Source: Rhodospirillales bacterium (GTDB lineage: Bacteria > Pseudomonadota > Alphaproteobacteria > UBA8366 > JADFVY01). Taken from it: a stretch of 47,767 nucleotides of DNA. Within the stretch, counting starts at the first letter, position 1, and every line of letters begins with the position of its first letter. The notes beneath the pieces are model-generated. The model saw nothing but the letters and a program-made list of their open reading frames with translations, made no database searches and was not told the origin of the DNA. Below are positions 5,798-41,208 of the stretch, piece after piece. The stretch covers positions 973,198 through 1,020,964 of the forward strand of contig CP070634.1 of assembly GCA_020356105.1 (NCBI GenBank), written 5' to 3'. The translations under genes were made by a program, and so were the position numbers.

Positions 5798-6141
5798 CGC
5801 CGGCGCGGTCACTATCGGATATTCCTGCTGCTGCCGGGCCTATTGCCGAAGCCGCGGCCTCATGCTTCGGGACGCCCCCTCCGGGGCTCCTCAGCATGAG
5901 GACGCTCCGCCGTTCGAACGTCTTGGTCCCTAATATCCCGCACGATCGTTGCTGCGGTGCGAGCGTTGGCACGGCACGCTGCGGCATGTCGCGCAGCAGA
6001 AAACTGAAATCGTAGTTGACGGATATGCCCGTGCCGCGGAAAGTCTATGGTGAGGCCACGCGCAAGGTGATGCTGGTACGCTCGCGCCGCTGTCGCCCGT
6101 GGCTGGAAGAGTAGCTGGACCAACCGAATGATTGGGACGAC
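5798..6141. other. Intergenic region with one interspersed repeat
   Basis: No convincing gene lies in these 344 bases between pheT and the J-domain gene. The main structure is the palindrome at 5858-5901. A 29-codon frame at 6025-6114 (MPVPRKVYGEATRKVML...) looks mildly protein-like but is too short to support. A clear intrinsic terminator for pheT was not seen. Confidence 0.5.
5858..5901. repeat. Interspersed palindromic repeat (alphaproteobacterial CCTCATGCT...AGCATGAGG type)
   Basis: Perfect 9-base inverted arms, CCTCATGCT at 5858-5866 and AGCATGAGG at 5893-5901, enclose a GC-rich centre that also contains a CCCC/GGGG pairing. I recognise this as the kind of palindromic element scattered between genes in many alphaproteobacterial genomes. 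It would fold into a strong hairpin in RNA from either strand. It may limit read-through after pheT. Only one copy of this type was noticed in the window. Confidence 0.7.
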
Positions 6142-6804
6142 ATGCCCCGCGCGCCGCGGCACGCCGCCGAAAATCTCTCGAGCAAGTCCTATGTGGTGCC
6201 GTGCTCCAGCACCTTCCGCGATTCCGTGTTGGACCTGGCCGCGCGTCGCAAGGTCAATCCCGGCGAGCTCGCGCGGGCGGTGCTGCTGCTGCTACCGGCG
6301 AAGGCCGCGGCCTTTCCGGATCCGGGCGAGCCGGAGCCGGGCGACCGGGAGACCGTGATCCTGAAAACGGGTGCGAATGCGGGCAAGCACTGGCGCCGCA
6401 AGCCGCGGCTGCAGGTGCGCACGCTGGCTGGCCGCAGCGCGGCGCAGATCCGCGCCGCTCTTGCCCTGGCGCTGGCCATGGAAGGTGGCGAGGTGACGCT
6501 GACGATGGAGGATGGCGGCGCCCCAACTGCAGCCGAGAAATTGACGCGCGCGCAAGCCGAGATTGCCCACCTGCGGCGTCAGGTGCAGGCGCTTTCATTC
6601 GAACCGCTCGCCAACGGCGTGCGCAGCCGCGCGCAGGCGCTCCACATTCTCGGGCTGGCCCCGGGGGCCGTTCCCGATGCGGCCGAGATTCGCCATCGTT
6701 ACCGCAAGCTCGCCGCGATTCACCATCCCGACGGCGGCAACGGCGATCACAAGCGCATGAGCCAGCTCAACGAGGCGGTGCGGATCTTGCGCGGCAAGGG
6801 CTGA
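6142..6804 (+). CDS. J-domain (DnaJ-like) protein with unrecognised N-terminal region
   Basis: This 220-residue protein ends in a J domain. At about residues 170-218, ALHILGLAPGAVPDAAEIRH precedes the HPD tripeptide (about 193-196, IHHPDGG) that stimulates Hsp70 ATPase activity. The J domain is C-terminal, unlike DnaJ, and lacks the G/F-rich and zinc-finger regions. The N-terminal 120 residues show a segment like an ordered helix-turn (LDLAARRKVNPGELARAVL) and no membrane segment, so it is probably a cytosolic co-chaperone with its own client-binding part. The start at 6142 is chosen as the first ATG in this frame with family-like sequence. It is convergent with tspO. Confidence 0.8.
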   Translation: MPRAPRHAAENLSSKSYVVPCSSTFRDSVLDLAARRKVNPGELARAVLLLLPAKAAAFPDPGEPEPGDRETVILKTGANAGKHWRRKPRLQVRTLAGRSAAQIRAALALALAMEGGEVTLTMEDGGAPTAAEKLTRAQAEIAHLRRQVQALSFEPLANGVRSRAQALHILGLAPGAVPDAAEIRHRYRKLAAIHHPDGGNGDHKRMSQLNEAVRILRGKG

Positions 6805-27718: not shown

Positions 27719-27888
27719 CCCGTTCTTTGCGCCCGACCCCACCCCTGTCCGGCGACCAGGATCAAGCGGCCGACGCCGTCTTCAGTGCGGCCTGACGGGT
27801 CTGCACGAAGCCCCGGACAGGCGCGTTTGGTGGTCTTTGCGTGCCGAGCCGTGATACCATGCCGGTCTGTCAACCGCCGGAGCCGCCG

Positions 27889-28125
27889 ATGACGCCAGAA
27901 ACCCTGTCGCTGATGCTTGATCTCGTTGAATGGGTTGCGGCTCGACCACGCCCCTACGCCGAGGTCATGGACGCCTGGCGGACGTCGTGCCCGCGTCTGA
28001 CGGTCTGGGAGGATGCCCTCGACGAGGGCCTCGTGACCCACGAGCAGCGGGACGGCAGCAGCCTGTATGTCACGGCGACGCCCGCGGGGCGGGCGTTCAT
28101 CGCGACTCATCGCGGGCCGTGCTAA
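27889..28125 (+). CDS. Small hypothetical protein, winged-helix-like
   Basis: This 78-residue protein (MTPETLSLMLDLVEWVAARP) has alternating helices and a C-terminal hairpin-like end (GSSLYVTATPAGRAFIATHR), an outline seen in winged-helix domains of MarR or PadR style. I do not recognise the family and assign no function. The start at 27889 is preferred to 27841 because sequence before it looks non-coding. Its end overlaps the 3' end of the disrupted gspK frame by four bases. Confidence 0.55.
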   Translation: MTPETLSLMLDLVEWVAARPRPYAEVMDAWRTSCPRLTVWEDALDEGLVTHEQRDGSSLYVTATPAGRAFIATHRGPC

Positions 28126-29042
28126 CCCGCTCCCTTCGGGGTGCCGACCGCCAGCGCCGGGCGCCAGCCATGGGTGACGAAGGGCGGGTCGGCGCCGGGC
28201 CGCAGCTCGATCACCGCCTCGCGCAGAAAGACTCCTCCCCCGGGTGTCTCGGCCTTTGCGGTGACGTAAACGACGCGGCCCCGGCCGCGGGCAAGCCAGC
28301 GCCTTGCCTCAGCCGGGATGAGGCCCAGCAGCCTACTGTCGCCGCCGTTCGACGTCGCTTCCGCGCGCGCCGCAATCAACGCGTCCGCCGCGTCTTATGA
28401 CATCCCCGGCAGCGCAAGCAAGGCGAGGCGCGGCGCGGCGACCGGATCGACTCCGCGCTGGCGCGACCAAACGGTGACGGCCCCTTCGATCGCGGTGTAG
28501 AGAATCATATCGATGCCGGGGATGCGAACGATTTCGCCGGGCGTGGCGAAGGGCCCGTTGCCGACCCGCACGCTCAGCCCGGCACGGTCGTAATCGGCCT
28601 GCTCGGCGCCACCCGGCGCCGCGTCCTCGTCGCGGTCACGCCAATCGGCGATCCGCGCGGCAAGGACTTCCGCCTGATCCTGATCGACGCCGACGGCCCT
28701 GAACAGGCCCGCGAGCAGATCCGGCGGCGCGGCGTTGAGATCGATGCGGCCCGTCGCATCATGGACGGCGATTTCAACGTGTCCCGCGTTCAGTTCGAGC
28801 CGATGCGTCGCGCCGTCGGCGGTCCAACGGGTCTCGGCATCCCGGTCCAGCAATCGCGGTATCGCGAAGAAGATGCCACCCTCGGCGAGGGCGTCGGCCT
28901 GGGCGGAGTCAACCAGGTTGCGGGTGAGCCGCAATTCGCTGCGAGTTGTCGTCAGCAAGCTGCCGGCGATCACCGCGAGCAGCAGCGCGAACCAGAGCAC
29001 CGCGATCAGCGCGACGCCGCGGTTGCGAGCAGGGCGCACCAC
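28122..29042 (-). pseudogene. gspK: Type II secretion minor pseudopilin GspK, interrupted by an in-frame TAA
   Basis: From a GTG at 29042, two bases past the gspD stop, the frame encodes the GspK start (RNRGVALIAVLWFALLLA, pseudopilin-like helix without Glu5) and the SAM-like and ferredoxin-like core (ATGRIDLNAAPPDLLAGLFR, NGPFATPGEIVRIPGID). It stops at a TAA at 28395-28397 after LALLALPGMS. The same frame continues without another stop to 28122 (DAADALIAARAEATSNGG, then RWLARGRGRVVYVTAKAE and HGWRPA), which is the expected end of GspK. The full frame has about 306 codons, close to the family length. The stop removes about 91 residues. GspK caps the pseudopilus tip with GspI and GspJ. An ATG at 29099 is a possible longer start inside gspD. 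A sequencing or assembly error is also possible. Confidence 0.85.
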
Positions 29043-29043
29043 C

Positions 29044-31281
29044 CTATTCCGCCGGCTCCTGCTCGGCCGGTTTGACTTCCTGGTAGACCTTGGCTTCAAG
29101 CCGCTCGATCTCCTCGATCCTGCGTCGCAGCTCGTCGGTAATCTCGCGTGCTTCCCGCATGTTGCTGACGACCCGAGGCGTCACCAGCACCAGCAATTCG
29201 TTGCGGATTATCGTGTCGGTCGTGGAGCGGAACAACGCGCCGACAAAGGGGATCTTCGACAGACCCGGCACACCCACCTTGGTGTTCGACTTGTTGTCCT
29301 GAATCAGCCCGCCCAGCGCGACGGTCTGGCCGCTCTGCACCGCGGCGGTGGTGTTGATGACGCGTTTCTCGATCGTCGGGGTGAGCGATCCGGCCGCCGT
29401 ATCCGGACTGACCTGGCTGACCTCCTGCTCGATCTCCATGATCACCAGCCCGCCTTCGTTGACGCGCGGGGTTACCGTGAGGATCACGCCGGTGTCCCTG
29501 AGCTCGACGTTGCTGATGAAATCCGTGGTGCCGGTATCCGGATCCTGGGTGCTCTGGGTAGACAACTGGGTGGCGACCGATACCTGGTCGCCGACCTGGA
29601 GTCGCGCTTCCTGGTTGTTCAGGACCATGACCTGCGGAGCCGAGATGACGTTGACGTCCGTGACGCTGGCCAGCATGTCGATCACGAAATTGGAGTTGGT
29701 CGAGGTGAAGACGTAGGACAGGCCCGGCACGGTGGCGCCGGGGGCCGTCGTCGCCGTGCCGCTGAACGTTATGCTGTTCCTGCCGTCACTGCTTTGCAGG
29801 AACCAACGGACACCGTATCTCAGAGAATCGGTCAACGTAACGTCGGCGATCGTCACCTCGATCAGCACCTCCAGCGGCCGCCGATCGATCTCGCGCAGCG
29901 CCCGCAGGATTGCGCGATATTCGGCGGGGCTCGCCGAGATCAGCAAGGCATTGCGGCTCTCGTCCGCGACGATCCGGACTTCCGATTCCGGGGCCAGGGC
30001 GATCGCCTCGGGCTCCAGCGCGGCAACGTTCCGGGAACCGGTTTGGCCGGTCCCTTGTGCGCGCTGTGCCTGGGGCTGGACCGTGACGGGCGTTGTCCCG
30101 GCCTGTTGCTGCGCGGGCGTCGAGGAGATCTCCACCGGCTCGAGGCCCGGCGCCACGATCGAGCCCCGCTCGACGCGTTGCGTTTCCGAGGTTTCGCCGA
30201 AGACCTGGTTTAAGACGTCGGCGATGTCCACGGCCTTGCCGTTCTGGACGAAGTAGATGTACAGCTGGTCGGCCGCCGTCTGGGTCCCGCGGTCCAGCCG
30301 CTGAACCCAGCGACGCACCTCGTCGAGATAGCGCGGCTGCTGCGAGACCGCCAGCACCGCGTTCATGCGTTCGACTGGCATCAGGCGGATGAGCCCGGAC
30401 AGCGCTCCGCCCTGTTCGGTATCGAGGATCAGGCCGAGCTCTTCCATGATGGTTTCCGGGTCGGAGAACTCCAGCGGGAACACTCCGAACGACATGCCCG
30501 CGAGCCAGTTGACGTCGAACACCCGTACCGTATCGAGAAGAGCCGCCAGTTCCGGTTGCGAGCCGGCCAGGATCAGAAGGTTCCGTGAACGGTCGACATG
30601 CAGCACCGCCTCGGGTCCGGCCAGCGGTGCCAGGGTCTCCCTCATGTCCTCTGCGGCAATATACCGCAGTTGGACGACCTGGACGCCGTAGCCGGCGCCG
30701 CTCTCTCCGGCTCGAAGCCGGATCGAACGCTGGCTGCGAGCCGCGCTCTGAAGGGTTTCCACCCGATAGATCGCGCCATCAAGCACCAGCGCGGCACCGT
30801 GTAGCCGCAGGATGCTCTCGAGCGCCGGCAGCAGCGCGTCACGGGACAGTGGGCGCTCGGTCTGCGCCGTCACGGTGCCCTGAACGTCGGGTGCGATAAC
30901 GTAGTTCAGCCCCAGAATTTCGCCGAGCGTCGCCTTTATGACCTGACGAATATCGGCGTCGGCAAAATCCAGGGTGATATCGCCATCGTCTCCGACCTGG
31001 ATCGTTACGGGCGCATCGGAATCGCCGCTGATGAAATTGCCGGTACCCCGGAATATCCTGTACTCCGGCTTGTCGGGCTGGGCCGCTTCATCGCCGGATC
31101 CGGCCGTATCGTCTCGCATGGCGTCGCCGCGACCGAGTTCGCTGAGTCCCGGTCGTTGCGGGGCCGGCTCGAACTCCGGCTCGATCCCCTCGGATTGGGA
31201 GAGGCGCTCGCAGCCCGGCAGCGACAGTACCAATATCGACAACAGGAGGCCAAATGAGCGTCCGCGGCTACGGCTCAACAT
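29044..31281 (-). CDS. gspD: Type II secretion system secretin GspD
   Basis: This 745-residue protein has a lipobox-like signal (ILVLSLPGC). An N0 domain (VTIQVGDDGDITLDFADADI) is followed by N1-N3 repeats (VVQLRYIAAEDMRETL, VFPLEFSDPETIMEELG) and the C-terminal secretin domain (VISAPQVMVLNNQEARLQVG, VALGGLIQDNKSNT). It forms the outer-membrane channel. The long proline-, glutamine- and threonine-rich linker between N2 and N3 (about residues 385-430) is a common feature. It is transcribed divergently from gspO-gspN and is followed by gspK two bases away. Confidence 0.95.
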   Translation of the reverse strand: MLSRSRGRSFGLLLSILVLSLPGCERLSQSEGIEPEFEPAPQRPGLSELGRGDAMRDDTAGSGDEAAQPDKPEYRIFRGTGNFISGDSDAPVTIQVGDDGDITLDFADADIRQVIKATLGEILGLNYVIAPDVQGTVTAQTERPLSRDALLPALESILRLHGAALVLDGAIYRVETLQSAARSQRSIRLRAGESGAGYGVQVVQLRYIAAEDMRETLAPLAGPEAVLHVDRSRNLLILAGSQPELAALLDTVRVFDVNWLAGMSFGVFPLEFSDPETIMEELGLILDTEQGGALSGLIRLMPVERMNAVLAVSQQPRYLDEVRRWVQRLDRGTQTAADQLYIYFVQNGKAVDIADVLNQVFGETSETQRVERGSIVAPGLEPVEISSTPAQQQAGTTPVTVQPQAQRAQGTGQTGSRNVAALEPEAIALAPESEVRIVADESRNALLISASPAEYRAILRALREIDRRPLEVLIEVTIADVTLTDSLRYGVRWFLQSSDGRNSITFSGTATTAPGATVPGLSYVFTSTNSNFVIDMLASVTDVNVISAPQVMVLNNQEARLQVGDQVSVATQLSTQSTQDPDTGTTDFISNVELRDTGVILTVTPRVNEGGLVIMEIEQEVSQVSPDTAAGSLTPTIEKRVINTTAAVQSGQTVALGGLIQDNKSNTKVGVPGLSKIPFVGALFRSTTDTIIRNELLVLVTPRVVSNMREAREITDELRRRIEEIERLEAKVYQEVKPAEQEPAE

Positions 31282-31472: not shown

Positions 31473-32231
31473 ATGTCCCAATACCTGTCAGACCAATGGA
31501 TCTGGCCCGTCATCGCTGCGCCGTTCATCGGCAGCTTCATCGGCGTGCTGATTCTGCGGCTGCCCGCCGGGCAGCCGATCGGAATGGTGCGCTCTGCTTG
31601 CCCGCATTGCAGCGTAACACTCGGCGCCACCGATCTGGTCCCGTTCGCCAGCTGGCTGTTGCTGCGGGGCCGCTGCCGCCATTGCAGTGCCGCGCTGGGC
31701 GCGTTCTACCCAGGCATCGAGGCAGCTTCGCTGGTGGTCGCCGCGTGGGCAGTACTGGTATTGCCGGGGCCGTTGTCGTGGATCGGCTGCATCTTGGGCT
31801 GGACGCTACTCGCTGCGGCCATGATCGACTTGCGCCACCTCGTGCTCCCGGACGTGCTGGTCCTGCCGCTTATTCCTGCCGGCCTTGCCGTGCATGCGCT
31901 GATCGCGCCGGAGCGTCTGCCCGATCATGCCATCGGCGCCGTGATCGGCTATCTTGGATTCGTTGCGATACGGGGCCTTTATGGCGCGATCCGCCGACGC
32001 GAGGGGCTGGGTCTCGGCGATGCCAAGCTGTTGGCCGCTGCCGGCGCCTGGGTCGGCTGGCAGGGGCTGCCCAGCGTCGTATTCCTGGGCGCCATGCTGA
32101 CGCTCGCCGGCCTGCTGGCAGTGGCGGCCGCGGGCGGTAAGGTGGACGCCAAGGGTGAAATTCCTTTCGGGCCCGCGCTTGCCCTTGCGTTTTGGATCGT
32201 CTGGCTGCATGGCCCACTGGTGGCGGTATGA
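31473..32231 (+). CDS. gspO: Type II secretion prepilin peptidase GspO
   Basis: This 252-residue integral membrane protein has the cytoplasmic zinc-type cysteine pairs (CPHC and CRHC near residues 46 and 71) and two aspartates of the aspartic peptidase site, one in MIDLRHLVLPD and one in GLGDAKL. It cleaves the leader peptides of GspG-K and N-methylates the new N-terminus. The Shine-Dalgarno sequence is weak. It overlaps gspE as ATGA, so it opens a tightly packed operon. Confidence 0.95.
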   Translation: MSQYLSDQWIWPVIAAPFIGSFIGVLILRLPAGQPIGMVRSACPHCSVTLGATDLVPFASWLLLRGRCRHCSAALGAFYPGIEAASLVVAAWAVLVLPGPLSWIGCILGWTLLAAAMIDLRHLVLPDVLVLPLIPAGLAVHALIAPERLPDHAIGAVIGYLGFVAIRGLYGAIRRREGLGLGDAKLLAAAGAWVGWQGLPSVVFLGAMLTLAGLLAVAAAGGKVDAKGEIPFGPALALAFWIVWLHGPLVAV

Positions 32232-33976
32232 GTGCTGAATTCGAAACGACAGGACGGGTTGAACCGAGGATTGTCAGTCAGTCTGACGCGTTTCTCGACG
32301 CCTTGGCGGATGAGCTGATTTCGTCCGGCAAGCTGCAGGCGCCGGCCCTGGCGCGGGCGCGACGTGTGTCTGCCGAAACCGGTGAGCGATTGGACTCCGT
32401 TCTCACCAAGCTGGGTCTCCTCTCCGACAAGGATCTCGCCCAGGCGATGGCTGATTCGGCCGGCCTTGAGCTTGCCCGCGACAACGATTTTCCGCAGGAT
32501 CCCCTGTTCGAGACGGAGCTCAGCCCGCGTTTCCTGCGGCAAGCGCGACTGGTGCCGATGTTCGAAGATGGCGAGCGGGTCGTCGCAGCGGTGGCGGACC
32601 CGCTTGATACCTTCGCGGTCGATGCGTTGCGCCTTGCGACGGAACGACCGGTCGAACTCCGCATCGCAACGCCGGCTCAGATCGAAGCGGCCCTGGATCG
32701 ACTGTACGGGGACGCCAATGCCATCGAGGTGCTGGCGCGGGACGCGGGCGAAGATGCCGCCGGTCAGGCGGATGCCGATGTCGAGCGGCTGCGTGACCAG
32801 GCAAGCGAGGCGCCGGTCATCCGTCTCGTCAATCTGTTGATCGAACGCGCCGTGGAAGAGGGCGCCTCGGACGTTCATCTCGAACCCTTCGAGGGACGCC
32901 TGCGGGTGCGCTACCGCCTTGACGGCGTGCTGCGTGAGGTCGAGGCGCCGCCGGCTCGGTTGGCCCAGGCGGTCGTCTCGCGGGTCAAGATCATGGCCCG
33001 GCTCAATATCGCCGAGCGGCGGCTGCCCCAGGATGGCCGCATCCGCCTCGCCAGCCGTGGGCGCGAAATCGACCTGCGCGTCTCGACGGCGCCGGCCGTG
33101 CATGGCGAGAGTGTCGTTCTGCGTATCCTCGACCGCGAGGGTGTCTCGCTCGATTTCGGTAGCCTTGGTTTCGCCGATGACGCGGCGGATCGGTATCTCA
33201 GGCTGCTGGATATCCCGCATGGGGTGCTGCTCCTCACCGGGCCGACCGGCAGCGGCAAGACCACGACACTCTATGCATCCCTGCTGCGGCTCAACACCGA
33301 CGAGCGAAAGATCCTTACCGTCGAGGATCCGGTCGAATATCAGCTCGACGGGATCATTCAGGTGCAGGTCAAGCCGGATATCAGCCTGACCTTCGCCTCG
33401 GCGTTGCGCAGTTTCCTGCGGCAGGATCCGGACATCATGATGGTGGGTGAGATCCGCGATCTCGAGACCGCGCAGATCGCGGTGCAGGCGGCGCTGACCG
33501 GCCACCTGGTGTTGTCCACCCTGCATACCAACGAGGCGGCGGGCGCCGTGACCCGGCTGCTGGAAATGGGCGTGCCCGACTATCTGCTGAGCTCCACCCT
33601 GAATGGTGTTGCGGCGCAGCGCCTGGTGCGGCGCTTGTGCGCGGATTGTCGCGAGGCCTATGCCCCCGACGACGCCCTGATCGAGCGCCTCAAGATGGAC
33701 AAGCTGCTGCCTGGCGGTCCGCCCGAGACCCTATACCGGGCGGTTGGTTGCGACTCGTGCGGCGGCAGCGGATATCATGGTCGCCTGGGGGTCATCGAGG
33801 TGTTGGTGATGAGCGACGAGATTCGCCGACTCGTCCTGGCCGAATCGGACGCCCACACCATCGAACAGGCGGCCCGGGCCGAGGGCATGCGCACGCTGTA
33901 TGAGGACGCGTTGGCCAAGGCGGCTGCCGGTGCGACCAGCATCGAGGAAGTGCTGCGGACGACGCGGGGCGACTGA
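32228..33976 (+). CDS. gspE: Type II secretion ATPase GspE
   Basis: This 582-residue cytosolic ATPase has an N-terminal GspE/MshEN domain (LDSVLTKLGLLSDKDLAQAM, near residue 55) and the AAA-type core. Walker A GPTGSGKTTTLY is near residue 340, Walker B-like MMVGEIRDLETA near 400, and a four-cysteine zinc element (CADC and CDSC) near 475-515. It powers pseudopilus assembly. The ATG at 32228 overlaps gspO by four bases. A 5' extension to 32192 in this frame is not used. Confidence 0.96.
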   Translation: MSAEFETTGRVEPRIVSQSDAFLDALADELISSGKLQAPALARARRVSAETGERLDSVLTKLGLLSDKDLAQAMADSAGLELARDNDFPQDPLFETELSPRFLRQARLVPMFEDGERVVAAVADPLDTFAVDALRLATERPVELRIATPAQIEAALDRLYGDANAIEVLARDAGEDAAGQADADVERLRDQASEAPVIRLVNLLIERAVEEGASDVHLEPFEGRLRVRYRLDGVLREVEAPPARLAQAVVSRVKIMARLNIAERRLPQDGRIRLASRGREIDLRVSTAPAVHGESVVLRILDREGVSLDFGSLGFADDAADRYLRLLDIPHGVLLLTGPTGSGKTTTLYASLLRLNTDERKILTVEDPVEYQLDGIIQVQVKPDISLTFASALRSFLRQDPDIMMVGEIRDLETAQIAVQAALTGHLVLSTLHTNEAAGAVTRLLEMGVPDYLLSSTLNGVAAQRLVRRLCADCREAYAPDDALIERLKMDKLLPGGPPETLYRAVGCDSCGGSGYHGRLGVIEVLVMSDEIRRLVLAESDAHTIEQAARAEGMRTLYEDALAKAAAGATSIEEVLRTTRGD

Positions 33977-33978
33977 GG

Positions 33979-35211
33979 ATGACGAGCTTTCATTACAGGG
34001 CCGTCAGCGCCGCCGGCGAGATCGTCGAAGGCGATATGGACGCCAGCACGCCCGACGCCGTGGTCGAGAGCCTACGCAAGCAGGGGCATTTTCCGCTCAG
34101 CGTGGGCAATGGATCCGCCGCACCTGCGGCCCGCAGGGCGGCCGCGCTGCCGGCGCTTCGGCTGTCGGGACGCCGCCGCGCGCCCTCGCTCGGCGGGCTG
34201 GCGACGACAACGCGTGAGCTCGCGACGCTGGTTCGCGCCGGCATGCCGCTGGACCGCGGCCTGCGGTTCGCCACCGATATGGCGGGCGAGAAGGCCCTGC
34301 GGAAGGCGCTCGAACGGATCTATCAGCGCGTCCAGAGCGGTGCTGCGCTGTCCGAGGCGGTCAGCGAATATGGCCTGTTCCCGGGCTACTATTCGGGCAT
34401 GTTGCGGGCCGGCGAGGCGGGCGGCAACCTGCACCAGGTCATGGACCAGCTGGCCAGCTATCTCGACCGGGTCTATTCGCTGCGGGAGAGTCTTAGGAGC
34501 GCGCTGGTCTACCCCGTGATTCTGCTGCTTATGACGGTCGCCACGATCATCGTCATGTTCGCCTTCGTGCTGCCGCAGTTCCGGCCGCTGTTCGAGCAGT
34601 TGGGCGCCGATCTGCCGTTGTTGACGCGCGGCTTTCTGGCCGCTGGCGATTTCATCGAGGCGTATTGGTGGGCCGGCCTGCTGGCGGCTGTTCTCGCCGT
34701 CGCCGCCTTTCGGTTTCGCCTGCGCGACCCGGCGTTTCGCCGCAACTGGGACGGGACGAAGCTGCGCATGCCCTTGATCGGAAATATCATTACGCGCGTC
34801 GAGACCGCCCGCTTTGCGCGCACGTTGTCGATGCTGCTGACCGGCGGCCTGCCGCTCACGGAGGCGCTCCGGATCGTCCCCGACTCGCTGACCAGTACCG
34901 TTTTCCGCGACAGCACCGAAGCCGTCGGCAAGGGGCTGCGGGAAGGGGGAAGCCTGGCACGCGGCGTTGCCCGGGCCGGCGCCTTTCCACCGCTCGCGGT
35001 GCAGCTGATCCAGGTCGGCGAAGAGGCCGGCCGCCTCGACGGCGTGCTCGCAGAGCTTGCCACCGCGCTGGAAACCGAGTCGCAGCGGTCGATCCAACGT
35101 CTGCTGTCGCTAATGGTTCCGACGATCACGATCATACTCGGCGCGATCGTCGCCCTCGTCATTATCTCAGTCCTGGGAGCATTCTTGAGTGTCAATGACC
35201 TTGCTTACTGA
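33979..35211 (+). CDS. gspF: Type II secretion inner-membrane platform protein GspF
   Basis: This 410-residue protein has the two GspF domains and three membrane helices. Family signatures are LATTTRELATLVRAGMPLDR in the first domain and ARTLSMLLTGGLPLTEALRI in the second. It anchors GspE at the inner membrane. It starts two bases after gspE and its 3' end overlaps gspG by 23 bases. Confidence 0.95.
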   Translation: MTSFHYRAVSAAGEIVEGDMDASTPDAVVESLRKQGHFPLSVGNGSAAPAARRAAALPALRLSGRRRAPSLGGLATTTRELATLVRAGMPLDRGLRFATDMAGEKALRKALERIYQRVQSGAALSEAVSEYGLFPGYYSGMLRAGEAGGNLHQVMDQLASYLDRVYSLRESLRSALVYPVILLLMTVATIIVMFAFVLPQFRPLFEQLGADLPLLTRGFLAAGDFIEAYWWAGLLAAVLAVAAFRFRLRDPAFRRNWDGTKLRMPLIGNIITRVETARFARTLSMLLTGGLPLTEALRIVPDSLTSTVFRDSTEAVGKGLREGGSLARGVARAGAFPPLAVQLIQVGEEAGRLDGVLAELATALETESQRSIQRLLSLMVPTITIILGAIVALVIISVLGAFLSVNDLAY

Positions 35212-35638
35212 TCGCCGCCAGAAACGCCGCCGGCGTAGCCGGGGCGTTACGCTGATGGAGCTGCTCGTCGTGCTGGCGATCCTCGCGCTGATCGCCACGG
35301 TAGCAGTGCCGATGTACCTGAATTACCTGACGAAATCGCAGATACGCACGGCCGCGATCCAGATCGACCGGTTGGGCGCCATCCTGGACGCATATCTCCT
35401 GGATGTCGGTCGCTATCCGACGCAGGAGGAGGGCCTGGAGTCGCTCGTTTCCGCGCCGCCGGGGGTCGATCGCTGGGCCGGGCCGTATCTCAAGAACAAG
35501 GAGGCGCTGACAGACCCGTGGGGCAACCCCTACGTCTACCAGTCACCCGGCCGACACGGCAAATACGACCTCTATTCGCTCGGTGCCGACGGCGCTGACG
35601 GCGGTGACGAAGAAAACGCCGATATCACGAGTTGGTAG
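35189..35638 (+). CDS. gspG: Type II secretion major pseudopilin GspG
   Basis: This 149-residue protein has a prepilin leader and the class III signal RGVTLMELLVVLAILALI, cleaved after glycine with Glu at mature position 5. The C-terminal part has the GspG calcium-site style segment (DPWGNPYVYQSPG, then YDLYSLGADGADGG). It forms the bulk of the pseudopilus. GTG at 35189 has GGGAG nine bases upstream. The ATG at 35195 is the alternative start. Confidence 0.94.
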   Translation: MSMTLLTDRRQKRRRRSRGVTLMELLVVLAILALIATVAVPMYLNYLTKSQIRTAAIQIDRLGAILDAYLLDVGRYPTQEEGLESLVSAPPGVDRWAGPYLKNKEALTDPWGNPYVYQSPGRHGKYDLYSLGADGADGGDEENADITSW

Positions 35639-35647
35639 TCGGAGCTC

Positions 35648-36085
35648 ATGGTCGCAAGTCGCGGATACACGCTTCTGGAACTTCTCGTCGCCTTTGCCAT
35701 CGTAGGGTTGGTTCTGGCGTCGGTGCCGATGGTCGTCGCCACTGCCCGCCCTGGACCGGCGGCTCGGGTCGCGGCGGAGGAGCTGGCCGCGGCGTTGCGA
35801 TTGGCGCGCAGCGAGGCGATCGGCCGCTACGCGCCGGCCACCCTGCTGCTCGATGTGGAACGGCGCGTATACCGCGACGCCGATGGTGTGGAGCACGCCC
35901 TGGCCGAGGATCTCGACTTCAGTTTCGTGACCGCGCGTTCCGAGCTCACAGGCGACAAGGCCGGTCAGATCCGATTCTTCCCGGATGGCAGCGCGACCGG
36001 CGGGCGTGTCACGGTCACCGACGGCGGTCAGGCTTACATTGTCAACGTCGACTGGCTCACAGGAATCGTCGATGTCGAACGCTAG
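35648..36085 (+). CDS. gspH: Type II secretion minor pseudopilin GspH
   Basis: This 145-residue protein starts with a prepilin signal (RGYTLLELLVAFAIVGLVL). A helix typical of GspH follows (EELAAALRLARSEAIG), then beta strands (IRFFPDGSATGGRVTV, VDWLTGIVDV). It sits near the pseudopilus tip. It follows gspG after nine bases and overlaps gspI by 14 bases. Confidence 0.9.
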   Translation: MVASRGYTLLELLVAFAIVGLVLASVPMVVATARPGPAARVAAEELAAALRLARSEAIGRYAPATLLLDVERRVYRDADGVEHALAEDLDFSFVTARSELTGDKAGQIRFFPDGSATGGRVTVTDGGQAYIVNVDWLTGIVDVER

Positions 36086-36470
36086 TCCGGATATGGCGCC
36101 TTTCAGGCGAGACAGGGGGTTCACCCTGATCGAGGTCCTGGTGGCATTCACCATCCTCGCGTTTTCGCTGGCCGCGGCATACGGCGTTTTCTCCGATGCC
36201 TCGCGGGCGGTCGCTTCGGGCGAGCGATACGGGCGGGCGCTGGCACTGGCGGAGAGCCGGCTCGCGGCGGTCGAGGCGGCGCGACCCGACGCGGTCTGGG
36301 ACGACGCCGGCGAGTTCGACGAGACCTATCGTTGGCGCGTGGCGACCGAGACGCTGTCGGACAACCTGCCCGTGAACGTCCAGCTCGAACCCGTCGTCGT
36401 TTCGGTAACCGTGAATTGGGACGGGGGCGGCCCGCTGATCCTGGAGACAATTCGGCTGAGGCCGCGATGA
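36072..36470 (+). CDS. gspI: Type II secretion minor pseudopilin GspI
   Basis: This 132-residue protein has the leader MSNASPDMAPFRRDRG and signal helix FTLIEVLVAFTILAFSLAA with Glu5. LAESRLAAVEA and a short beta domain follow. It pairs with GspJ and GspK at the tip. The ATG at 36072 lies within the gspH end. The stop overlaps the gspJ start as ATGA. An upstream frame start at 35985 is inside gspH and is rejected. Confidence 0.9.
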   Translation: MSNASPDMAPFRRDRGFTLIEVLVAFTILAFSLAAAYGVFSDASRAVASGERYGRALALAESRLAAVEAARPDAVWDDAGEFDETYRWRVATETLSDNLPVNVQLEPVVVSVTVNWDGGGPLILETIRLRPR

Positions 36471-37123
36471 GCAGGCAGTCGTTTGAACGCCGCACGCGCG
36501 GCATGTCGCTTGTCGAAATCGTGATTGCTCTCGCGATTCTGGGGATCATGGCGACACTCTCGCTGGGCGGTCTGCGTCTCGGCGTGCGGACCTGGGAGAC
36601 GGTCGGCCAGCGCGTCGAGACCGAATCGCACGACCAGATCGTCCGGGCCTTCCTGCGCCGCACCCTGTCGCAGGCCACCCCCGTGCTCGAAGCCGGCGCC
36701 GACCGGCAGCCGCGTTCGCTGTTCGCGGGCGATGCGGAATCGCTGTCGTTGATCGCTCCGCTGGCCGAACATCTCGGGCTCGGCGGATTGCAGCGTCTGG
36801 ACTTCGAGGTCGAAGACAGCGGCGGCAGTTCCGGTTCCCGGTTGGTGCTGGTGCGGGTCCCCTATGTCCCGAGTGGCGGCGATCCCGGCGCGGCGAGCGA
36901 GCAGGAGCCGGAGCGGCACGTGCTGATCGAAGATGCGGCGCGGATCCGCTTCGACTACCTGCGTGAGCGCGAGAGCGGCGCGCGGGAATGGACCGGGAGC
37001 TGGACGGACGAGCCGACACTCCCGCTCGCGGTGCGGTTGATCGTCGAGCCCGGGGCGGGCCGCCTTGCGCCGCCGGAGCTCATCGTGCCTCTGCGCGTCA
37101 CCATGGTCACGGGGCGGCTATGA
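36467..37123 (+). CDS. gspJ: Type II secretion minor pseudopilin GspJ
   Basis: This 218-residue protein has the prepilin signal RGMSLVEIVIALAILGIM, then an LRLGVRTWETVGQRVE helix and beta-rich body ending in a RVTMVTGRL strand. GspJ with GspI and GspK forms the pseudopilus tip complex. It overlaps gspI and gspL by four bases each. Because gspK is interrupted, the GspJ partner may be truncated here. Confidence 0.9.
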   Translation: MSRQSFERRTRGMSLVEIVIALAILGIMATLSLGGLRLGVRTWETVGQRVETESHDQIVRAFLRRTLSQATPVLEAGADRQPRSLFAGDAESLSLIAPLAEHLGLGGLQRLDFEVEDSGGSSGSRLVLVRVPYVPSGGDPGAASEQEPERHVLIEDAARIRFDYLRERESGAREWTGSWTDEPTLPLAVRLIVEPGAGRLAPPELIVPLRVTMVTGRL

Positions 37124-38208
37124 GATCGGGTCTCGCTGTCGCCGCCGATACGTTCGCCGCCTTCTTTCGCTGGTGGCTCGGCGAGCTGTCCGGGCTGGTG
37201 CCGGGCTCCCTGCGCGCGGCATTTTCCGGCGAGCCCGCGCTGATCTCGGTCACGATCGGCGCAGACGCGGCAACGGTCGCACGGCTGTTGCGCGGTTCGC
37301 GCCAGGAGTTGGGCAGCATCGACCTTTCGCTTGGCGATGCGGAGCAGCGCGTCGCGATGGGCCGGTTGATCCGAGGCCGGATGCGAGGGGCCGTCGTCGT
37401 CCTGGCCCTGTCGGCCGAGCGGGTGTTGCGAAAGACACTCAACTTGCCATCGGCGGCCGAGGCCGAACTGGCCGATCTGCTGCACTTCGAACTCGATCGC
37501 CAGACCCCGTTTTCGCCAGAACAGGCCTGTTACGATTATCGTGTCGTCGACCGCGACAAGACGGCCGGCCGGATGAGGGTCGAGATTGCTGTGGCGCCGC
37601 GCGACGAGGTCGAACGGGCACAGGCTTTGGCGGCCGGCTGGGGCTTGACACCGGTCCTGGTCACCGCCGGCGGCGACGAAGAATCGGACCGGCCCTTCGA
37701 TCTTTCGGGCCGAACCGAGTCCAGCGGGCTCGGGGGGCGGGCGATCTTGATGGCGGTCTTGGCGGTGATTGCGGCTGCGCTTCTCGTTGTCGCAGTGGCC
37801 CTGCCGCTGCGCTGGCAGGCCACGGCTGCGGCGGAAGCCGACCGTACGCTGGCCGCCGCCCGAACGGCGGCGCGCGAGGCGACGGATTTGCGCGAGGCGT
37901 TGAGGCAGCGGCGACAGGACGCGCGATTCCTCATCGACCGGAAGCTGAACATGCCCTTGTCGGTGTCGGTTCTGGCGGATCTGACGCGGCTGCTGCCCGA
38001 CGACACCTATCTGTTCGAGTTGCGCTTCCAGGATGGACGGGTGCGGGTCCGCGGTTACGCGCCGGCCGCATCGCCGCTGCTCGAGCTGTTTGAGACTCAT
38101 CCTCGGTTCGCCGGTGCGCGGTTCGAATCGCCGGTGACCCGGGTGCCCAATATCGATAAGGAGCGATTCGACCTGTCCGTCGCTCTGGCAGCGGAGGGGT
38201 CGACATGA
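37120..38208 (+). CDS. gspL: Type II secretion protein GspL (PilM/PilN-like)
   Basis: This 362-residue protein has an N-terminal cytoplasmic actin-like part of about 210 residues (ALISVTIGADAATVARLLRG; LNLPSAAEAELADLLHFELD), one membrane helix (AILMAVLAVIAAALLVVAVA), a coiled coil and a periplasmic ferredoxin-like domain (RLLPDDTYLFELRFQDGRVR). It links GspE to the periplasmic platform. The start overlaps gspJ as ATGA and the end overlaps gspM as ATGA. Confidence 0.9.
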   Translation: MRSGLAVAADTFAAFFRWWLGELSGLVPGSLRAAFSGEPALISVTIGADAATVARLLRGSRQELGSIDLSLGDAEQRVAMGRLIRGRMRGAVVVLALSAERVLRKTLNLPSAAEAELADLLHFELDRQTPFSPEQACYDYRVVDRDKTAGRMRVEIAVAPRDEVERAQALAAGWGLTPVLVTAGGDEESDRPFDLSGRTESSGLGGRAILMAVLAVIAAALLVVAVALPLRWQATAAAEADRTLAAARTAAREATDLREALRQRRQDARFLIDRKLNMPLSVSVLADLTRLLPDDTYLFELRFQDGRVRVRGYAPAASPLLELFETHPRFAGARFESPVTRVPNIDKERFDLSVALAAEGST

Positions 38209-38798
38209 GCCCGACATTGCCGCCGATGGTCGGGCGGTTGGCCGCCGTGGCTTTGCTGATCACCCTGTTGGCCGGCATCTGGCTGGTTGGCCTGGCGCCG
38301 CTCGTGAAAAGCTATCGCGCCGACCGCGAATCCGTCGCCTTTGCCAGCGAGCAACTACCCCGGCTCCAGCGTCTGGCCGCCGCGGTGCCGTTGCTGCAGG
38401 CCGAGCTGGACCGGATCGCACGGGATCCGACCGGCCGCACCCGGCTGTTGAGCGGTGCGAGCGACGCCCTTGCGGGGGCTGACCTGCAAAACCGTGCCTC
38501 TCGCGAGGCAACGCGGCACGGACTGACTTTGCGCAGCGCGCAGGTCCTGCCGCCGGTGGCGGAAGAGGGCTTCCGGCGGATCGGCATTCGGATCGCGCTC
38601 GAGGGTGACCTTGCCGGCCTGCGTCGCTTGTTGTACAGCATCGAAACCGCGCCGACCTTTCTGTTCATCGACAATCTGGAGATCCGCAGCCGCGGCGGGG
38701 GGCGGATCCTGCAACGCCGGAATCAGCAGGTGCAGCCCGACGAGAGGTTGGCGATCCGCTTCGATGTTCACGCCTATCGTCGCGAGGTGGCGCCGTGA
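38205..38798 (+). CDS. gspM: Type II secretion protein GspM
   Basis: This 197-residue protein has one membrane helix near the N-terminus (GRLAAVALLITLLAGIWLVG), a coiled-coil region (SEQLPRLQRLAAAVPLLQAE) and a periplasmic ferredoxin-like domain (IGIRIALEGDLAGLRRLLYS). This is the GspM/PilO arrangement that pairs with GspL. It overlaps gspL by four bases and gspN by four bases. Confidence 0.88.
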   Translation: MSPTLPPMVGRLAAVALLITLLAGIWLVGLAPLVKSYRADRESVAFASEQLPRLQRLAAAVPLLQAELDRIARDPTGRTRLLSGASDALAGADLQNRASREATRHGLTLRSAQVLPPVAEEGFRRIGIRIALEGDLAGLRRLLYSIETAPTFLFIDNLEIRSRGGGRILQRRNQQVQPDERLAIRFDVHAYRREVAP

Positions 38799-39430
38799 GG
38801 ATGCCGCGCACACTGGCGCGACCGCTCGGTGCCCTCTTGCTGTTCTGCCTGCTCCTGGCCGGGGTGGTGGCGCTCGAGATGCGCCATCCGGATTCCCTCG
38901 TGTTGGTCGTCGAAACCGGCGGCGGCGCGCAGGGCGGGCCGGACTCGGTGGCTGATGGACAGGCCGAGGATGGAACTTACCGGCCCCCCGGCGAGTCCGT
39001 CTTCCAGGTGATCGAGGAGCGTCCACTGTTCTCGCCGGACCGGTTGCCGCGCGAGGATGCACCCGTCGCGGTTCCCGAGGGCCCGCCCCCGCCCAGCGGG
39101 CTGGACGGGCTGATGCTCACAGGCATCATTCACGCTGGCGACGCCTGGGTCGCGATCGTCGAGCCGACCGGCCCGCCGCGGCCCGGCAGCGAGGCGCTGT
39201 CGCTTCAGGTCGGCGAGACCCTGCGCGGCTGGACCGTGGAAGAGATCCTCGAGGACCGGATGGTGTTGGCACACAGTGACCGGCGATTCGAGATGGTGTT
39301 GACCGAGGATCCGACGCGCCGGCGCCAGCGGCCGCGCCAGCCCCCCACCCCGGCCGGCGGCGTGCGAACGCCCGGCTTTGTGGCGCCACAGCCGCAACAG
39401 CCTGCACCGCAATCGCAGACGAACCGCTGA
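38795..39430 (+). CDS. GspC/GspN-like HR-domain type II secretion protein without PDZ domain
   Basis: This 211-residue protein has an N-terminal membrane helix (LGALLLFCLLLAGVVALEM) and a periplasmic homology-region-like domain (FQVIEERPLFSPDR, LMLTGIIHAGDAWVAIVEP, LQVGETLRGWTVEEILEDRM). It ends in a proline- and glutamine-rich tail. The HR domain of GspC binds the secretin N0 domain, so this protein likely plays the connecting role. There is no PDZ domain, unlike classical GspC. The GTG start overlaps the gspM stop as GTGA. Confidence 0.8.
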   Translation: MRMPRTLARPLGALLLFCLLLAGVVALEMRHPDSLVLVVETGGGAQGGPDSVADGQAEDGTYRPPGESVFQVIEERPLFSPDRLPREDAPVAVPEGPPPPSGLDGLMLTGIIHAGDAWVAIVEPTGPPRPGSEALSLQVGETLRGWTVEEILEDRMVLAHSDRRFEMVLTEDPTRRRQRPRQPPTPAGGVRTPGFVAPQPQQPAPQSQTNR

Positions 39431-41069: not shown

Positions 41070-41096
41070 CCAGGTTTCTCCGCGAACGGCTATGCC

Positions 41097-41181
41097 GTCA
41101 TCGCGAGGCGGCGAAGCCGACGACGCAATCCGGTCTCTCCATCGTTCCGGAATGCCGCGGCGCCACCGGCCTCGCGATGAC
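41097..41181. repeat. Interspersed inverted repeat (GTCATCGCGAGGC...GCCTCGCGATGAC type)
   Basis: Perfect 13-base inverted ends, GTCATCGCGAGGC at 41097-41109 and GCCTCGCGATGAC at 41169-41181, enclose 59 bases including GGCGAAGCCGACGACGCAATCC. I recognise this as a common intergenic element of alphaproteobacterial genomes. It lies between the convergent TrpF-like and 5'-nucleotidase genes. Confidence 0.75.
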
Positions 41182-41208
41182 AGCTCTGTATCCCCGGTCC
41201 CAGGCGTC

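Follow-up and report, generated by a model that had tools for sequence, protein, structure and literature searches.

An in-frame TAA in gspK of a Rhodospirillales type II secretion locus is most likely an ordinary recent nonsense mutation or a sequencing error

The closest described system is the minor pseudopilin GspK/XcpX/PulK of the type II secretion system (T2SS). The alpha-domain of GspK is an insertion within the beta-sheet of the pilin fold (PMC8179133). An xcpX (gspK) mutant of Pseudomonas aeruginosa cleared milk and kept its growth on lipid agar, which was not so for xcpV and xcpW mutants (PMC6211770). The gene considered here lies in a 47,767-nucleotide stretch of a Rhodospirillales genome, which we call the window. 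It is like the described proteins in having a prepilin signal without a glutamate at +5, the PF21687 alpha-domain, a gspD neighbor within a T2SS locus, and matches to 5VTM chain X and 3CI0 chain K. The C-terminal strands are there too, in the continued frame. It is unlike them in being broken by an in-frame TAA past the alpha-domain.

The features are collected in Table 1. Translation of window 28122-29042 on the minus strand gives 215 residues, a TAA, 90 residues and a TAG. The start is a GTG at 29042 that comes immediately after the gspD stop (29046-29044). The front part contains a class III prepilin signal (..RNRG|VALIAVLWF..), the N-terminal helix, the first pilin strands and the alpha-domain. 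By eye, mature position 5 is Ala, not Glu. The upstream part matches T2SSK_1st (PF21687), which is the T2SSK alpha-domain, and profile matches were found to 5VTM_X (E=1.5e-7) and 3CI0_K (E=3.3e-6). PF03934 was also tried, but its search of the genome came back empty and PF21687 fits the region instead. Pfam models gave zero matches to the tail alone. When the read-through protein was searched against the whole genome, gspK proved to be single-copy with exactly one TAA. The preliminary description had named the gene gspK, and the PF21687 match and the in-frame alignment to intact GspK agree with this. It had also claimed that a single in-frame TAA cuts off the end of GspK without a frameshift, which the translation confirms, and that the sequence past it is GspK-like, which holds in alignments to two close relatives and 20 alphaproteobacterial proteins. 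It counted 91 codons past the TAA. The frame is open as claimed, but there are 90 codons and the 91st is the final stop. At window 28122-28125 gspK converges with a plus-strand ORF (27841-28125), and its TAG shares two bases with the TAA of that ORF.

Table 1. Parts of the interrupted gspK and its T2SS neighbors (window positions)
Feature	Position	Strand	Basis or remark
gspK front part	28398..29042	-	215 aa; translation, PF21687 E=2.9e-16, alignment to relatives
In-frame TAA in gspK	28395..28397	-	without counterpart in any aligned relative
gspK tail, frame unchanged	28125..28394	-	90 codons; last strands of the split pilin module
Natural gspK stop, TAG	28122..28124	-	overlaps the TAA (28123-28125) of a convergent ORF
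TTG, possible restart codon	28377..28379	-	would yield an 85-aa fragment; judged unlikely to matter
gspD secretin, intact	29044..31281	-	TIGR02517
Prepilin peptidase gspO, open	31473..32231	+	sequence and position; no NCBIfam match
gspE and gspF, intact	32192..35211	+	domain/NCBIfam matches
Pseudopilins gspG, gspH, gspI, gspJ, open	35189..37123	+	NCBIfam search
gspL-like, gspM, gspN/gspC-like, open	36988..39430	+	last assignment inferred from position

The gene sits in a full T2SS cluster. gspK and gspD are on the minus strand, and gspO, E, F, G, H, I, J, L, M and a gspN/C-like gene are on the plus strand, where all are open. NCBIfam cut-offs are exceeded by gspD, E, G and M, and weaker matches were obtained for F, H, I, J and L.

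Uninterrupted orthologues were found by whole-genome search in G001 (same genus, 75%), G002 (same family, 61%) and G006 (same family, 37%). Both G001 and G002 read through the column of the gspK stop without a stop. Of 386 genomes of the class searched with a profile, 53 contain GspK-like matches, and the window genome is one of them. From these matches 20 further alphaproteobacterial GspK loci were aligned, including four that had been flagged with a stop (G125, G042, G197 and G153), as if the stop recurred. All four of the flagged stops are natural C-terminal ends, and a premature stop is present in 0 of the 20 genes. Across the family, different residues occupy the column of the stop. Thus the frame is open in the orthologues and broken by an in-frame stop here, as in a nonsense pseudogene.

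The sequence past the TAA reads as genuine GspK rather than a chance open frame, because it aligns in frame to G001 and G002 and carries the conserved C-terminal pattern. This pattern consists of conserved Ala, Gly, Arg-x-Ala-Val and Trp-Arg positions. The window tail keeps them, and it keeps 12 of the 15 conserved tail columns. Identity to G001 is 76% before the stop and 65% after it, and identity to G002 is 60% before and 47% after. The intact pair G001-G002 falls likewise, from 65% to 50%. Since this pair shows the drop too, the tail is just a less conserved region of the protein.

There is no sign of relaxed selection behind the gspK stop in pN/pS or in lineage-specific changes, and a very recent event would show none. 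Between the window and G001, pN/pS is 0.445 in the tail and 0.343 in the front part. For the intact pair G001-G002 the values are 0.501 and 0.351. Lineage-specific changes in the tail are 8 vs 7 (Fisher P=0.33 against the front), though with just 15 informative changes this is a weak test. The tail is not faster-evolving than expected, which fits a very recent event. Because the lost part keeps the residues conserved in the family and gives no sign of relaxed selection, the stop is either recent or an error.

The gspK stop is not special to gspK, since two further in-frame stops and one frameshift turned up in the sample. This sample consists of the window plus six 20-kb stretches of the genome, and what aligned to G001 amounts to about 103 kb of coding-like DNA. 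Disruptions were called from flank identity, from bias at third positions and by inspection, and their numbers are small. In total the conserved coding DNA has three in-frame stops (gspK included) and one frameshift. A J-domain gene (6025-6804) has one of the two further stops close to its 5' end, a TAG at window 6112-6114 (+). G001 and G002 are open there, and in the window genome translation may begin at the in-frame ATG 6142. The other is a TGA at L068:8614-8616 (+; genome C1:2308614) within a CobQ/CbiP-type cobyric acid synthase gene. The halves of this gene match CbiA and GATase_3, and the flanks of the stop share about 90% identity with the G001 gene, which is uninterrupted. The frameshift lies near L067:13463-13491 (-) and affects a gene for an MFS transporter, which G001 has in a single frame. 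Other stop candidates from the G001 comparison were discarded on flank identity and position. They lie in antisense frames or upstream of the true start (window 2759, 39207, 39132 and 2467; L065 13824 and 13797; L007 12769). The reciprocal check of about 114 kb of G001 gave one frameshift and zero convincing internal stops. That frameshift breaks the G001 gspD (L005:4214-4235), which is intact in the window, and it is probably an assembly matter in the G001 metagenome-assembled genome. A modest load of pseudogenes would produce this pattern of disruptions, and so would imperfect bases in the consensus.

We argue that the gspK stop hardly points to a new mechanism. Its most likely origin is either an ordinary nonsense mutation of recent date or an error of sequencing. 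Both nonsense-disrupted genes and consensus errors look like what is seen here, a substitution-type stop within a conserved single-copy gene with similar stops elsewhere in the assembly, and nothing notable differs. We lean towards the view that the single-copy gspK of a normal T2SS locus was broken by one recent substitution creating the TAA. In favor of a mutation, the other disruptions in this genome are mostly substitutions, unlike the indels that are typical of raw long-read error. Real bacterial genomes usually carry a few percent interrupted genes, which also counts against an error. However, the undecayed tail fits a sequencing error equally well. There is a substantial chance, if short of even, that gspK is intact in the organism and GspK is normal, the TAA having entered the assembly through an error of sequencing or consensus, or as the base of a minor strain that became fixed there. 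The genome is a single contig of only 92.3% completeness, its three stops contrast with no convincing stop in the larger sample of G001, and one interrupted gene, of the CobQ type, is well conserved apart from its stop. All of this speaks for an error.

The preliminary description also listed read-through and reinitiation beside a recent point mutation and a sequencing error. The last two survive, but the others are unsupported. Functional read-through of the TAA would give low-level full-length GspK, which would fit a minor tip subunit, and the tail is indeed conserved and in frame. An open conserved frame past the stop is also what programmed read-through and stop reassignment look like. Against this, the stop is found in one genome only and in no aligned relative. 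RNA folding near the stop, the one recoding signal looked for, is no better than in shuffles (z=+0.48). TAA is an ordinary terminator in this genome. The two further in-frame stops are a TAG and a TGA, so that one suppressor could not deal with all three. We consider functional read-through very improbable, and the same goes for the more specific idea that an inefficiently read TAA keeps the tip subunit of the pseudopilus at a very low dose. Reassignment of TAA to a sense codon was raised by the fact that 0 of 25 window genes end in TAA. It is excluded because TAA ends 6 of 93 conserved genes in a larger sample with gspK left out. Least likely of all is a split protein, in which the tail, 85 residues made by reinitiation at the TTG (28379), would pair with the front half. 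This TTG is in frame and just 15 bases past the stop. However, its product would have only the last pilin strands, with no class III signal or membrane helix. It would be cytoplasmic, whereas the front half is membrane-inserted, and such an arrangement is absent from all aligned relatives.

If the stop arose by a recent substitution in the sequenced organism, what would the cell make? The alpha-domain is inserted in the pilin beta-sheet (PMC8179133), so it is the tail that completes the pilin module. With the cut behind the inserted domain, the split fold loses its last strands. These strands are in frame but behind the TAA, so they are absent from the translated product. At 215 residues, the shortened GspK would still have its prepilin signal, N-terminal helix and alpha-domain. 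Since the stop falls just after the inserted domain, the pilin sheet would be left incomplete. We expect this protein to misfold or be degraded and to be unable to cap the pseudopilus, and it is probably non-functional. A predicted fold of the intact G001 GspK from a two-sequence alignment was too poor (pLDDT 43.5) and was set aside.

The earlier expectation that the pseudopilus tip is affected is reasonable for GspK itself, but a secretion defect is not automatic. Total loss of secretion does not follow because the xcpX mutant secretes enough for lipid agar and milk (PMC6211770). By this analogy GspK loss need not stop secretion, and the remaining T2SS machine may still work, at a lower or changed level. 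A real stop would make this a natural gspK-truncated T2SS, in which one could ask how much secretion depends on the GspK pilin module. If the stop is instead an error, it warns against taking single stops of this assembly, with three in about 103 kb, for biology without reads. The significance outside the window genome is small either way.

A short interspersed palindromic repeat was also observed, of the CCTCATGCTTCGGGACG...CCTCAGCATGAGG type at 5861-5901. It occurs at about 5840-5903 and 41080-41182 in the window and at L007:10745-11103. There are dozens of copies in G001, and it looks like a family of REP-like intergenic elements.
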